33,283 nt of DNA. It comes from Pirellulales bacterium. Its GTDB lineage: Bacteria > Planctomycetota > Planctomycetia > Pirellulales > UBA7805. Positions 8,919 through 23,401 of the stretch are shown here, one piece after another. The stretch's first letter is position 1; every line of letters starts with the position of its first letter. Where the stretch lies: assembly GCA_029245145.1 (NCBI GenBank), contig JAQWPY010000020.1:1-33283 (forward strand), given 5' to 3'. Both the position numbers and the translations under genes were made by a program. A model generated the notes under the pieces. It was not told where the DNA came from. It did not search any database and worked only from the letters and a program-made list of their open reading frames with translations.

Positions 8919-9752
8919 ATGTCTCATACCTCGAGGATGCTGTTTATGACTTTTCCACTTCGTCGCGTGTGGCTCTGGACGATTATCGTCGCCCTTTATA
9001 GCAGTCTTGCTTACTTGCGGTTTCAATATCCTCGAATTATTGATATTCCTAACTTCACACTACCGCTCGAAGCAGTGCTTACATTTGCAATGGGCATGTT
9101 GATTTTGTTCCGAATCAATCGTGCATATGAACGCTGGTGGGAAGCGCGTACTTTGTGGGGAGCGTTAGTGAATGCAAGCCGCAATCTTGCAGTAAAAAGT
9201 CGACAGTTCATGACGACTGACAGGGCGGAGTGCGAGGCGATGCGTGATTTGGTTATCAGCTTTTGCTTTGCGCTGAAGAACCATCTCCGGGAGGAGCCCG
9301 ATGTGAGCAGGGGGGTTCGCTCGCATATCCCCGCCAACATTCAGCATGTTCCCAATTACATCACAGGCCAGATCTATGCGCTGTTAAAAAAATGGAATCA
9401 ATCGGGGCAATTGACAGATCAGGAATTTTGGACGCTCGATCGCGAAGCCCGTATTTTTTTAGAGATCTGTGGCGCGTGCGAACGTATTAAGTCAACCTTG
9501 ATGTCTCGGTCTTGGCGGATTCTTACACGGCAGTGCATCGTGCTCTATCTGCTGCTTACGCCGTGGGCGCTGATCGAGGAGTTTGGCTACTGGACGGTTC
9601 CAGTGACCGTTGTGGGTGCCTATTTCATTATCGCGGGAGAAGGCATCGCCCATCACATTGAGGAACCGTTCGGTGTCCAGGAAGACCAACTGCACCTCGA
9701 TACGATTTGCGTCAAGATCGAGTCGTCTGTTTCCGAGATCTGCGATGCGTGA
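8919..9752 (+). CDS. Bestrophin family (UPF0187) ion channel protein
   Basis: 'FRINRAYERWWEARTLWGALVNASRNLA' and 'EGIAHHIEEPFGVQEDQLHLDTIC' are bestrophin-like. Start at internal Met 8919. Confidence 0.88.
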   Translation: MSHTSRMLFMTFPLRRVWLWTIIVALYSSLAYLRFQYPRIIDIPNFTLPLEAVLTFAMGMLILFRINRAYERWWEARTLWGALVNASRNLAVKSRQFMTTDRAECEAMRDLVISFCFALKNHLREEPDVSRGVRSHIPANIQHVPNYITGQIYALLKKWNQSGQLTDQEFWTLDREARIFLEICGACERIKSTLMSRSWRILTRQCIVLYLLLTPWALIEEFGYWTVPVTVVGAYFIIAGEGIAHHIEEPFGVQEDQLHLDTICVKIESSVSEICDA

Positions 9753-12009: not shown

Positions 12010-12513
12010 TTACTTGTCGATTTGCGGTTCCTTGCCTTCATACGCACGATAAAAGTCGTAAATTTTTTCCTTCAGTACTTCCGCGGGTGCCGCTTCGGCG
12101 CTCTGTTTGCACTTCATTGCGGCCACCATCACCGCGTGTGCCGCGGCTAATTTTTTCGCATAGCCTTCTTTGTCGGCCTTGATCCGCTGAGTCATAAAAT
12201 ACTGGCTGATCGTATGCTGAATATTGGTTGCGTGCGCTTCCTTGGTGTTGATCCAGCGCACGGTCTGATTGACCGATTGAGGATCGGAACTTCCTGCCAT
12301 CTCGCGAATTTTGCCGATTCCTTTGGCAATCGTCTCTTGATCTTCGAGCATATCTTCAAATCGCCTTTGATCATCGTAAATTCCACAGGGAACTTCGCAG
12401 TGAGCCAACAGAGAGGAGGAAAAGACGACGAGTAGCATCGGTACGGCACAAAGAACAGAAAAAGTTTTCACGGCTAAACTCCTTGGAAGCGCAAAAGGTT
12501 CATGACTCTGCAA
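12010..12513 (-). CDS. sodN: Nickel superoxide dismutase with N-terminal signal peptide
   Basis: Ni-hook-like motif 'HCEVPCGIYDD' (canonical HCxxPCGxY) directly after the hydrophobic leader 'FSVLCAVPMLLVVFSSSLLA'; downstream helical bundle sequence. Confidence 0.93.
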   Translation of the reverse strand: MQSHEPFALPRSLAVKTFSVLCAVPMLLVVFSSSLLAHCEVPCGIYDDQRRFEDMLEDQETIAKGIGKIREMAGSSDPQSVNQTVRWINTKEAHATNIQHTISQYFMTQRIKADKEGYAKKLAAAHAVMVAAMKCKQSAEAAPAEVLKEKIYDFYRAYEGKEPQIDK

Positions 12514-18214: not shown

Positions 18215-18440
18215 GGTGTTGTATTCTGAAGGTAGTCGGGGGGCCGATTTTTCAGCGCAAAGGTGGAAAGCTGTCGTTGTTCTGGCCAGTATATCGGCCC
18301 CCGATTTTCGGAAACATCCGTAATCCTTCGCAGATGCTCTTTTTTGTGCTGCTTTTCGCGAGAGAAATCGCTCCGCTGGTGGCTTTCTTGTGCATTACCC
18401 GACTAGAATAAATGCAATCACCTTTTCCCCGGACTCGCCC

Positions 18441-20552
18441 ATGATCCCTCCCCAGAACAGACTGCCGATTCTCGAGTCTGCCGGCAAGACGGGTGCTGTT
18501 TTAGAGCAGCTTCCTCTCGCGGACGCCGCCGAGCCGCTCCCTATTTCCCGCGCTGAAATGGAGGCTCGCGGTTGGGATGAAGTGGACGTCGTGTTTGTGA
18601 CCGGGGATGCGTATGTTGACCATCCCAGTTTCGCTGCCGCCATCTTGAGCCGCGTCTTGGAGGCAGCCGGTTTCCGCGTCGGCATTTTGCCCCAGCCCGA
18701 TTGGCGGAGCTGTCAGAGTTGGAAAACGTTCGGCAGGCCGCGACTCTTTTTTGCGATCAGTGCCGGAAACATGGACTCGATGATCAACCATTATACGGCG
18801 AACCGGAAGGTACGTAACGACGATGCCTATTCGCCGGGGGGTCGGATCGGCATGCGGCCCGATCGCGCCACGCTCGCCTACTGTCAGCGGGCGAGAGAAG
18901 CCTTTAAAGGGGTGCCGGTGATTGCGGGCGGCGTAGAAGCCTCGCTGCGGCGTCTGGCACACTACGACTACTGGAGCGATAAAGTCCGCCGTTCGATTCT
19001 GCTCGATTGCAAGGCCGATCTTTTGGCGTTCGGGATGGGTGAAGAACTCATTTTGCAGATTGCTCGCCGCCTTGATGCGGGTGAGACGGTCCGCGATTTG
19101 CGCGAAATGCGGGGCGTGGCCTATGCGATGGGGGCCTCCGAGACACCTCCGGCCGATGCGCTTGTGCTGCCCAGTCACGAAGAGGTGCTCGGCGATAAGC
19201 GAGCCTTCGCCCAGGCCACCAAGATGATCCACAACGAAACAAATCCCTACAACGCGCGGCGACTCATCCAGTGGCACGACCGCCAGGCGGTGGTGGCCAA
19301 TCCTCCGACGCTGCCGATCTCGGAAGGGTCGATGGATTCGGTGTACGAACTGCCCTACACCCGCAAGCCCCACCCCTCCTACAGCGAACCGATTCCCGCT
19401 TTCGAGATGATCAAAGATTCGGTCACGATCATGCGGGGCTGTTTTGGCGGCTGCACTTTTTGTTCAATCACGACCCACCAGGGACGCATTATTCAGTCGC
19501 GCTCGCGCGAATCTATCAACCGCGAAGTGCGGGCGATGACCGAGGATGAAGATTTCAAAGGTGTAATAAGCGACATCGGCGGACCAACGGCCAACATGTA
19601 TCAAATGCGGTGTCTCAAGCCGGAGGTCGAGGCGGTGTGCCGTCGGCAGTCGTGCGTCCATCCGACGATCTGCAAATTATTGGGCACCGACCATGGGCCG
19701 CTGGTGCAGTTGATGCAAGATGTCCGAGAGACGCCGGGAGTGAAAAAGGCGCTGGTGGCCAGCGGAATCCGTATGGATTTGGCACGGCGATCACCCGATT
19801 ACATGCGCGACTTAACACGACACCACGTCGGTGGGCACCTCAAAGTCGCGCCGGAGCATACCGATCCGCACGTGCTCGACAAGATGCGCAAACCGAGTGG
19901 CGATGATTTTGATGACTTTGCAGAAATTTTTAACGCCGAATCGAAGCGTGCCAAGAAGAAACAATATTTAATCCCCTACTACATTGCGAGTCATCCGGGA
20001 AGCGATCTCGATGCGATGATTGATCTGGCGCTCTATCTCAAGCGAACCGGATACCGGCCTGATCAGGTTCAAGACTTTATTCCCGCGCCATTCGATGTGG
20101 CGACCGCCATGTACTACACGGGAATCGATCCCTTTACCGGCAAGGAGGTGCATGTGGCGCGTCACCTGCGTGATCGCAAACTGCAGCGTGCGCTAATGCA
20201 ATTTTTTAAGCCGGAGAATTATTTTCTGGTCCGCCGTGCCCTTGAGAAGGCGGGTCGCCAGGATCTCATCGGCAGCGGTTGCGATTGTTTGATTGCTGAT
20301 CGACCACCGCGTGAAGCGATTCTTGCGCGGCGGCGTGCTGCGGTGGGCGAATCGGGCGGCTACGTGCACCAGATGGATAGCAGCGGATCGGCGGTGAAGC
20401 GGCAGTCCCGCAATCGGCCCGGCACAGGTTACCGTCCGGGACGGCAGAGTTCCAAAGAGGGTTCGGCAGCACCGGAAAAGCCTGCGAAAGGAAACACGGC
20501 TAAGTCGCCGAAGTCAAAGAAAAAGCGTGCTCGGCGGAACCGCCCCCGCTAA
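18441..20552 (+). CDS. YgiQ family radical SAM protein
   Basis: '[42 protein letters not shown]'; radical SAM Cys motif '[12 protein letters not shown]'; basic C-terminal tail. Confidence 0.95.
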
Positions 20553-20556
20553 CACC

Positions 20557-20889
20557 CTAATTGACTAATTTCCCGTCAAAACCGGCTTGTTTCAAAGCGT
20601 CGATCAACGTCTGACTATCAAAATCGCTTTCGTCACCTTTGATTTGAACGGTTGCTTCTTTCTTTTTAAAGTCGACCTGGACAGTTTCGACGCCCGGAGT
20701 CTTTTGAAGTGCGGCCTCGACCCGAGGCTTACAGCCGAAGGGTCACGACATGCCGGAAACGACCAGGGTCAAAGACGGTAGCGATGCATTTTGGGTGGCT
20801 TTCGGACTCTCGGTAGAGGCCGACTGCTGGCATCCTGTGAGCCCGACGATTGCGATGACGCAACTAATAAAGAGGGGTTCTCGTCGCAT
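20557..20889 (-). CDS. Putative selenocysteine-containing heavy-metal-associated (HMA) domain lipoprotein; in-frame UGA at 20743..20745
   Basis: Read by me through the TGA: MRREPLFISCVIAIVGLTGCQQSASTESPKATQNASLPSLTLVVSGMS[U]PFGCKPRVEAALQKTPGVETVQVDFKKKEATVQIKGDESDFDSQTLIDALKQAGFDGKLVN*. Lipobox LTGC; HMA motif GMxCxxxC with the first Cys replaced by UGA; 61 sense codons intact after the UGA; SECIS-like hairpin downstream. Confidence 0.75.
20714..20728 (-). promoter_or_regulatory. Candidate bacterial SECIS hairpin
   Basis: RNA sense GCCUCG-GGU-CGAGGC: 6 perfect pairs, 3-nt loop starting GG; loop begins 21 nt after the UGA codon. A weaker extension below the stem is possible (UGU/GCA with an AA/C internal loop). 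Confidence 0.65.
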
Positions 20890-21017
20890 GGAATGCACTC
20901 CGAGGAATTGATGTTTGGGTGACCTCTTCGTTATAGCAACCAACTCCATGCGCCGCCATCTCTTTTTACCTTTGAGGCTCTTTTTCCCATTCGCTTCGCT
21001 GCATCTTCCCTCGATTG

Positions 21018-21866
21018 CTAGCATGCCGCACTTTTCCAGCCCTCCAGATCGGCCACTGAGTCGTCGCTACGCGATCCGAGTGGAATCACCGTCTTCAAGT
21101 TCATCTCGGGTGCGGTGAGGTCGGCCAGCGAATCAATCACGAGATCAGGACGATAGGCATACTTCCCGAGGTCTTCACTTCGCGTGGACCCCGAGAGGAC
21201 GAGGATGGTTCGGTATCCCATGGCGACTCCACCCAGAATATCGGTTTCCATCGTATCGCCGATCATGATCGTTTCCGAGGCAGGCACACCCAGGTCATGG
21301 CGCGCTTGACGCAGCATGATGGGACTCGGTTTTCCCATGTTCATAGCCCGCCTTCCGGTTGCCGTTTCCAAGTAGGCGACCGTTGCACCGCAACCGGCCC
21401 GTGTGCCTCCCTGGGTCGGGCAATTTGGATCGAGGTTCGTCGCAATCAGTTTCGCACCATCTAAAATCAACTGGACTGCGTGGTCGAGCATTGCGTGTGT
21501 AACGGTTCGACCTTCCCCCACCACCACATAGTCTGGATCATGATCGATCACTGCATACCCATTGGTGTGCAGGGCTGCGAGCAGGCCACCTTCTCCAATC
21601 ACAAAGGCAGTTCCCTGAGGGTGCTGCCTGGCAAGAAAGCGGGCGGTCGCCATGGCGCAGGTAAACACCTGATGATCTTCGACTTCAATTCCCATGCGAT
21701 TGAGTTTCGTAACCACATCGCGTCTCGTTCGCTGACTATTGTTGGTCAGGAACATATAGGGAATTTCCTCATGTGCCAGACGATGGATAAATGCCTCAGC
21801 ACCAGGGATGAGTTCTCCACCTCGATAAATAACGCCATCCATATCGATCAAGTAACCGCGACCCAT
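21018..21866 (-). CDS. HAD-IIA family hydrolase (NagD-like)
   Basis: 'YLIDMDGVIYRGGELIPGAEAFIHRL', 'FLTNNSQRT', 'GKPSPIMLRQA', 'MIGDTMETDILGGVAMGYRTILVLSG'. Confidence 0.93.
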   Translation of the reverse strand: MGRGYLIDMDGVIYRGGELIPGAEAFIHRLAHEEIPYMFLTNNSQRTRRDVVTKLNRMGIEVEDHQVFTCAMATARFLARQHPQGTAFVIGEGGLLAALHTNGYAVIDHDPDYVVVGEGRTVTHAMLDHAVQLILDGAKLIATNLDPNCPTQGGTRAGCGATVAYLETATGRRAMNMGKPSPIMLRQARHDLGVPASETIMIGDTMETDILGGVAMGYRTILVLSGSTRSEDLGKYAYRPDLVIDSLADLTAPEMNLKTVIPLGSRSDDSVADLEGWKSAAC

Positions 21867-22143: not shown

Positions 22144-22932
22144 TCATTTAATTAATTCGACTACACGTCTTTCACTAAAATACTTAAGTGCCGGAATCAG
22201 GCGCAAAATCGACCGATCGATTTTGTTTAAGACTTTCGCGTGCGAGTTTTTTGGAAAAGGTATTCTTCTGATCGCTTCGGTTGTGGGCAGGCTGAAACCA
22301 CGACTCGAATACGAGGAAAACTCTCGCCCGTACTCAATGAGTTCTTTATCTGTCAAAGGTCGCTCAAAAGGAGAAATGTCGTGTAAGCGATAGGGAACCA
22401 TTTTACGTAATAATTTGATCAGGGAAGAATTTCTTACCGGTTCCTGAAAAATAGCACGACCATTTTCTTTCAGTACCCTCCAAATCTCTTCTGCAGATAT
22501 TTTAAGATCGAGATGATGGAGAATGTTGACACCGAAAACAATGTCAATCGACTTGTCAGGTAAAGGGATATCGTGTGCAGATCCTACGATGAATTTCACA
22601 TCGCCCTCGACATGGTTCACTTCAAGACGTTGGCGAGCGACTTGAATTAACTCAGGAGAAATATCGATCGCTATGACTTTGGCCCCTCGAAGCGCAAGGA
22701 GAAGCGTGTTGACTCCATCGCCACAACCGTACTCGAGAACGACCTTCCCGCGGGCATCCCCGAGTAGGGCAAAGCAGTATTCCAACGAGTGCCACGTATC
22801 GAGCGGGGGATTCATATAACGCTGAATGCGGCTATCCGGCGTTTTGAGTGTTTCAGCATCGACGCGGCCCGCTGCACCTGCACTTCGTGCTACTTCCGCA
22901 TTCTCCCATGATCGAATATTTTCTGAGTCCAT
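22144..22932 (-). CDS. Class I SAM-dependent methyltransferase
   Basis: 'VVLEYGCGDGVNTLLLALRGAKVIAIDISPELIQVAR', 'DIVFGVNILHHLD'. Start at Met 22932 because the longer ORF runs through the tRNA-His. Confidence 0.88.
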   Translation of the reverse strand: MDSENIRSWENAEVARSAGAAGRVDAETLKTPDSRIQRYMNPPLDTWHSLEYCFALLGDARGKVVLEYGCGDGVNTLLLALRGAKVIAIDISPELIQVARQRLEVNHVEGDVKFIVGSAHDIPLPDKSIDIVFGVNILHHLDLKISAEEIWRVLKENGRAIFQEPVRNSSLIKLLRKMVPYRLHDISPFERPLTDKELIEYGREFSSYSSRGFSLPTTEAIRRIPFPKNSHAKVLNKIDRSILRLIPALKYFSERRVVELIK

Positions 22933-22993
22933 GCCGAATTGACTAGTTTTGCGGAGACCCGTCGCGGAAAATTGGCGACCAGATTGCGGAAAG

Positions 22994-23068
<75 letters not shown>

Positions 23069-23401
23069 ATAGCTTGAGGTAAATTCAAGTACGCATGCAT
23101 GATAATTGGCCTTGGGCGACCGGTCAACGCGTTGCGCGTTACCCAAACTTACGATCTGGTGTACTCCAGGGTGTGGGCAAATCGCGATTGGTAAAAGCCT
23201 GAGTGCATCCAATCGGCATCGTCGCCTTCGATCTGCGTTCCTCCCCCTCCTATCGCAGCGCTATTCTCGCGATTGCAGATGAGCCGATTGAAGTCGTCTA
23301 CCCCAGTTCTTTCGCACGCGATATAATCCCCATAGACGGGTTTCCGGGTTTTGAGGGCCCGCCCGTCGCTCCTTCCTTGCCGCGCTATTCTATCTCTGCG
23401 A

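Follow-up and report, generated by a model that had tools for sequence, protein, structure and literature searches.

A probable selenocysteine-containing HMA-fold lipoprotein with a UxxxC site in a Pirellulales bacterium

We describe a gene of a Pirellulales bacterium that very probably encodes a selenoprotein, an HMA-fold protein of the cell envelope; this confidence attaches to the kind of protein and not to the metal that we name for it below. The gene lies at 20557..20889 on the minus strand of the window (the whole stretch of DNA that was analysed, 33,283 nt), and its in-frame TGA at codon 49 (20743..20745) is, judging from the machinery of the genome, the conservation of the codon and the RNA downstream of it, almost certainly read as selenocysteine (Sec).

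Read with TGA as Sec (U), the frame 20889..20557 comprises 110 codons with one TGA only (U49) and ends in TAG; the translation begins MRREPLFISCVIAIVGLTGCQQSASTES and runs from the motif to the C-terminus as VVSGMSUPFGCKPRVEAALQKTPGVETVQVDFKKKEATVQIKGDESDFDSQTLIDALKQAGFDGKLVN. This bears out the sequence-only reading, which had described a minus-strand frame with a lipobox leader and an HMA domain interrupted by exactly one TGA. ATG 20889 is likely the start of the gene: a GGAG that we read as Shine-Dalgarno-like (20898..20901) lies 8 nt upstream, and a predicted lipoprotein signal peptide (20830..20889) follows, in which residues 17-20, LTGC, fit by eye the lipobox pattern [LVI][ASTVI][GAS]C, with the cysteine at position 20. 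A lipobox-like GC is also found in the four orthologs described below and in most distant Sec homologs, and with such a leader the HMA domain would be expected to point into the periplasm or away from the cell. The prediction that annotation would leave a 48-residue stub is correct for ATG 20889; the mechanical open reading frame is instead a stub of 93 aa that starts at an in-frame upstream ATG (21024). No sigma-70-like promoter or intrinsic terminator was found around the gene.

The TGA is conserved within the genus. Among 58 relatives searched, four other same-genus genomes (G001, G002, G004 and G005) carry orthologs of 51-61% identity in which this codon is the one TGA and the frame is intact on either side of it; no ortholog was found in G003, a same-genus genome that is 70% complete. 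The order of an upstream HAD-family hydrolase (NagD-like; 21018..21866, minus strand; Hydrolase_6 and Hydrolase_like matches), the HMA gene and a convergent YgiQ-type radical SAM gene (18390..20552, plus strand; Radical_SAM_N and DUF3362 matches) recurs in G002 and G004, and its YgiQ side in G001. We conclude that the frame with its single TGA is not a product of chance, since both recur in the four same-genus genomes. Downstream of the TGA, pN/pS among the orthologs is 0.09-0.44 with pS mostly 0.5-0.8, so selection on the part beyond the TGA is purifying.

These observations bear on three other explanations of the TGA. A recent pseudogene, in which an ordinary stop leaves a protein of 48 residues and the rest of the frame decays, would fit a single TGA in an otherwise ordinary HMA gene, the use of TGA to end other genes nearby and the lack of a selB gene in the source assembly; it is nevertheless very improbable given the same TGA in five species, the low pN/pS downstream, frames free of frameshifts, a second position that is also UGA in other lineages, and a genome that holds Sec machinery and other selenoproteins. 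The frame damage in close relatives that decay would predict was looked for, and there is none. An error of sequencing or assembly that turned TGC or TGT into TGA might be suspected in a draft metagenome assembly of 223 contigs that is 65.5% complete, but it is hardly credible when the identical TGA recurs in four separately assembled same-genus genomes and in ten further planctomycete genomes; conserved TGA, intact frames and purifying selection together argue strongly against both pseudogene and error. Bacterial termination is leakiest at UGA, and the codon might be read as another residue or leak without Sec, for example through near-cognate Trp read-through; this, too, is highly unlikely, as the homologs that were read have Cys at this position, a conserved hairpin follows the UGA in a genome with Sec machinery, and UGA terminates other genes of the window. 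The genes ending at 9752, 11997 and 14644 do end in TGA, as had been noted from the sequence, and the code as a whole is therefore not changed. We reject all three on the orthologs, selection, nearby TGA stops and other selenoproteins.

Elsewhere in the window, 12010..12513 (minus strand) encodes a nickel-containing superoxide dismutase (Sod_Ni, 112.5 bits) with an HCxxPCGIYD metal-binding hook, and a DUF1559 protein, of a kind typical of planctomycetes, is also encoded. The phylum Planctomycetota is indicated, too, by a homolog sequence that is identical in a same-phylum genome (L134) and in a record named as Planctomycetota (L104). A mechanical open reading frame at 22144..23127 (minus strand) takes its first residues from the sequence of a tRNA-His gene (22993..23067); the methyltransferase-like gene itself must begin on the downstream side of that tRNA.

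The source genome, a metagenome draft of 2.41 Mb, has a tRNA-Sec with anticodon UCA (70.5 bits), a complete selA (546 bits) and a selD whose gene is cut by a contig end (228 bits). selB was not found in this 65.5% complete assembly; the wing domain of the SelB C-terminus occurs in G001, G002, G004 and G005, all of which have the HMA ortholog, and selA is also present in G003, G004 and G005, of which G004 is 99% complete. The expectation that the genome would hold the Sec apparatus thus stands for tRNA-Sec, selA and selD, and for selB it is borne out in four sister genomes and not in the assembly itself. Two further genes, from known selenoprotein families, are independent evidence that this genome decodes UGA: a SelW-like Rdx protein with a CAMU motif (contig C83; MNVHIKYCAMUNYEPKAL) and an FmdB protein (contig C138; SHTSLUHGPTEI), both having one TGA, in the canonical position (loci L146 and L141, respectively). 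With this machinery, with undamaged TGA-bearing orthologs, and with homologs that have Cys or UGA at the site, the Sec reading of the TGA first proposed from the sequence is upheld.

Folding and identity in five genomes point to a bacterial SECIS hairpin, GCCUCG-GGU-CGAGGC, at 20714..20728 (minus strand). Its 6-bp stem carries a GGU loop 21-23 nt after the UGA with a spacing of 20 nt, within the limits of the published bacterial model (loop of 3-9 nt starting with G, stem of 4-16 bp, spacing of 16-37 nt; PMC13188914); the distance from the UGA to the start of the GGUC is 21 nt here vs. 19 nt in E. coli fdhF. Seventeen nucleotides 3' of the UGA, AAGCCTCGGGTCGAGGC, do not differ among the five species, although silent change is heavy elsewhere, and the pattern of UGA plus hairpin occurs once in each of the five same-genus genomes. 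At codons +5 to +11, 5 of 7 amino-acid-invariant codons are also codon-invariant (the consecutive K-P-R-V-E), vs. 4 of 25 elsewhere (Fisher p 0.01, for a stretch of codons picked after the data were seen). Other observations count against the hairpin: its folding energy is unremarkable (z -0.5 to -1.9), the full stretch has an alternative fold in which the UGA region pairs with the hairpin loop, the conserved codons also encode the most conserved peptide, and Rfam gives no match at the hairpin. Nine distant Sec homologs share a different stem, 91.7% paired, between positions 21-28 and 34-41 (numbering from the U of UGA); its covariation score, for a stem chosen from folds of the same sequences and with a modest count of independent double changes, is not attained in any of 500 shuffles and collapses when the stem is slid.

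The protein belongs to the HMA fold. The Pfam HMA match (PF00403) spans the TGA, covering residues 43-105 (20575..20763) at 45.0 bits vs. a gathering threshold of 24.8. An AlphaFold2 model has the order beta-alpha-beta-beta-alpha-beta, with a mean pLDDT of about 83-93 over the domain and residue 53 at the beginning of helix 1, and the best PDB fold match is MerP (1osd; TM-score 0.87, normalised by target). Model and fold match together place Sec49 and Cys53 (20731..20733, from frame and homolog alignment) at the metal-ligand places of HMA domains. In place of the HMA motif GMxCxxC the protein has GMSUPFGC, with Sec as first ligand and three residues between the ligands, and HMMER alignments to PDB chains show the extra residue. 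The TGA had been placed at the first metal-binding Cys of the family; that placement is correct, and the UxxxC spacing exceeds the usual HMA CxxC by one residue.

We propose the following mechanism. SelB, guided by the hairpin 15-29 nt downstream of the UGA, would insert Sec at codon 49; the 110-residue pre-protein would be exported and, as the leader predicts, lipidated at Cys20, so that its one HMA domain would be anchored to a membrane and lie outside the cytoplasm; Sec49, from the loop that precedes helix 1, and Cys53, the residue with which that helix begins, would form a U-x-x-x-C site; and this site would most likely capture or relay a soft metal ion, e.g. Cu(I) or Hg(II), for which a selenolate may offer tighter binding and faster exchange than a thiolate.

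A search for homologs with Cys or UGA at position 49 had been suggested as a check, and the protein has relatives of both kinds. A search of 398 genomes from the order and 395 from the phylum, in which the motif was read in reported loci with TGA, identified UGA at the same Cys in ten planctomycete genomes beyond the genus. The UxxxC form is found in the genus itself, in G056 (two copies), G390, G593 (two neighbouring genes) and G398; G018, G033, G034, G048, G065 and G372 have UxxxU, with Sec at both positions, the second corresponding to Cys53. Cys forms with the same CxxxC spacing are present in other Planctomycetota and in records of Bacteroidota, Myxococcota, Binatota and Neomarinimicrobiota; they come from a contig scan with a query back-translated with Cys only, which can return Cys and not UGA forms, and the Sec forms were surveyed within the phylum. 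In a tree of both forms, support is too low for a count of Sec gains, while the five genus sequences make one supported group (95/94).

Several individual loci deserve mention. In the second copy of G056 (L025), a TAG also interrupts the frame towards the end of the domain, and this gene may be in decay. In G593 (L135), neighbouring HMA genes on the minus strand near 1612 and 2013 each have their own UGA (GMTUAVGC and GMSUGVNC), and it is possible that they are tandem Sec lipoproteins. In five Myxococcota/Binatota-type loci (L103, L105, L107, L109 and L110), Cys-form CxxxC genes repeatedly adjoin AmpG-like MFS, agmatine-deiminase-like and carbon-nitrogen-hydrolase-like genes (all identified by eye), a conserved setting that has no obvious metal genes.

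We infer an extracytoplasmic role in capture or relay of soft metals as the most likely one, and the UxxxC motif is probably, with appreciable doubt, a metal site rather than a purely redox site. The alternative is a selenoprotein in which UxxxC is a thiol/selenol redox pair, forming a selenenylsulfide and serving redox or peroxide chemistry in the envelope rather than binding a metal. Most selenoproteins are redox proteins (PMC13188914), the CxxxC spacing differs from the CxxC typical of metal-binding HMA domains, and the window copy has no metal-transport genes in its neighbourhood, which leaves room for a redox role; the two Sec residues of the UxxxU homologs are compatible with either role. 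The fold, however, is a standard HMA fold whose nearest structures include MerP and CopZ, the two residues sit at metal-ligand places, and there are no thioredoxin-like features. Moreover, a G056 homolog (L125, 2888..8000), itself without a clear lipobox, follows a MerR-type regulator at a distance of about 0.6 kb and adjoins outer-membrane efflux and RND pump genes, which favours metal handling; among the stretches read for the other Sec homologs, none has recognisable metal genes beside it. On balance, we consider the redox pair a tentative alternative with a minority share of the probability.

Whether Sec in HMA proteins had already been described was a question raised with the candidate, and the answer is yes, in other subfamilies. 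A MerP selenoprotein was reported in the Global Ocean Sampling set (2 sequences, with no motif given; PMC2398784); it resembles the window protein as an extracytoplasmic single-domain HMA protein with predicted Sec, whereas MerP is a soluble periplasmic CxxC protein and the window protein a lipoprotein with UxxxC, which scores 41.4 bits against the MerP model TIGR02052, below its cut-off of 92.55. NF041115 (UxxU_metal_bind) is described as a metal-binding (seleno)protein and 'putative mercuric reductase' with UxxU (PMC13188914, PMC9312934). Its members and the window family are alike in being small and HMA-related, with Sec replacing ligand Cys and up to two Sec; they differ in the motif, UxxU as reported vs. 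UxxxC/UxxxU with one extra residue, and in the lipoprotein leader of the window protein; the latter reaches 38.5 bits (cut-off 95). NF045683, in NCBIfam a MerT/CopZ fusion-like heavy metal transport selenoprotein, also contains Sec and an HMA (CopZ-like) part, but it is a 235-position fusion with a MerT transporter part, which the single-domain window lipoprotein lacks (39 bits; cut-off 375). The MerP structures (1osd, 1afi) and CopZ metallochaperones have the fold and the ligand-residue places in common with the window protein, but have no Sec, and their CxxC has one residue fewer from ligand to ligand (in the alignment shown for ATP7B-type HMA domains). Closest in spacing are the secreted 'GMxCxxxC' proteins of Bacteroidota, Binatota, Myxococcota and Neomarinimicrobiota, which have a single HMA domain and the same CxxxC, with Cys where the window protein has Sec. 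All nine aligned family members match the same NCBIfam families with modest E-values, the scores given here being those of the first member only. We therefore rejected filing the protein under the NF041115, NF045683, MerP or CopZ NCBIfam models, as no cut-off was reached.

No UxxxC/UxxxU HMA selenoprotein appears in the 2026 review, NCBIfam 20.0 or our full-text searches, a scope to which Haft and Tolstoy 2025 and the Olavius symbiont selenoproteome did not belong. Sec in the HMA fold is already known, and what appears new is a small planctomycete branch of CxxxC-spaced lipoproteins. A larger claim, to which we give slightly better than an even chance, is that the planctomycete UxxxC/UxxxU HMA lipoproteins constitute a new family with an unusual affinity for, or choice of, metal (Hg(II), Cu(I)) and with a second SECIS architecture outside the genus; as part of that same claim, and at the same level of confidence, the lengthened loop and one or two selenolates would make the unusual metal site.

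In conclusion, annotation truncates or misses these genes, and a conserved branch of metal-binding selenoproteins in planctomycetes thus appears to have been overlooked. The family adds covarying SECIS elements from a phylum with few described, and its UxxxC, UxxxU and CxxxC homologs on one fold are natural variants through which one may ask what a selenolate adds to a metal site as opposed to a redox enzyme.
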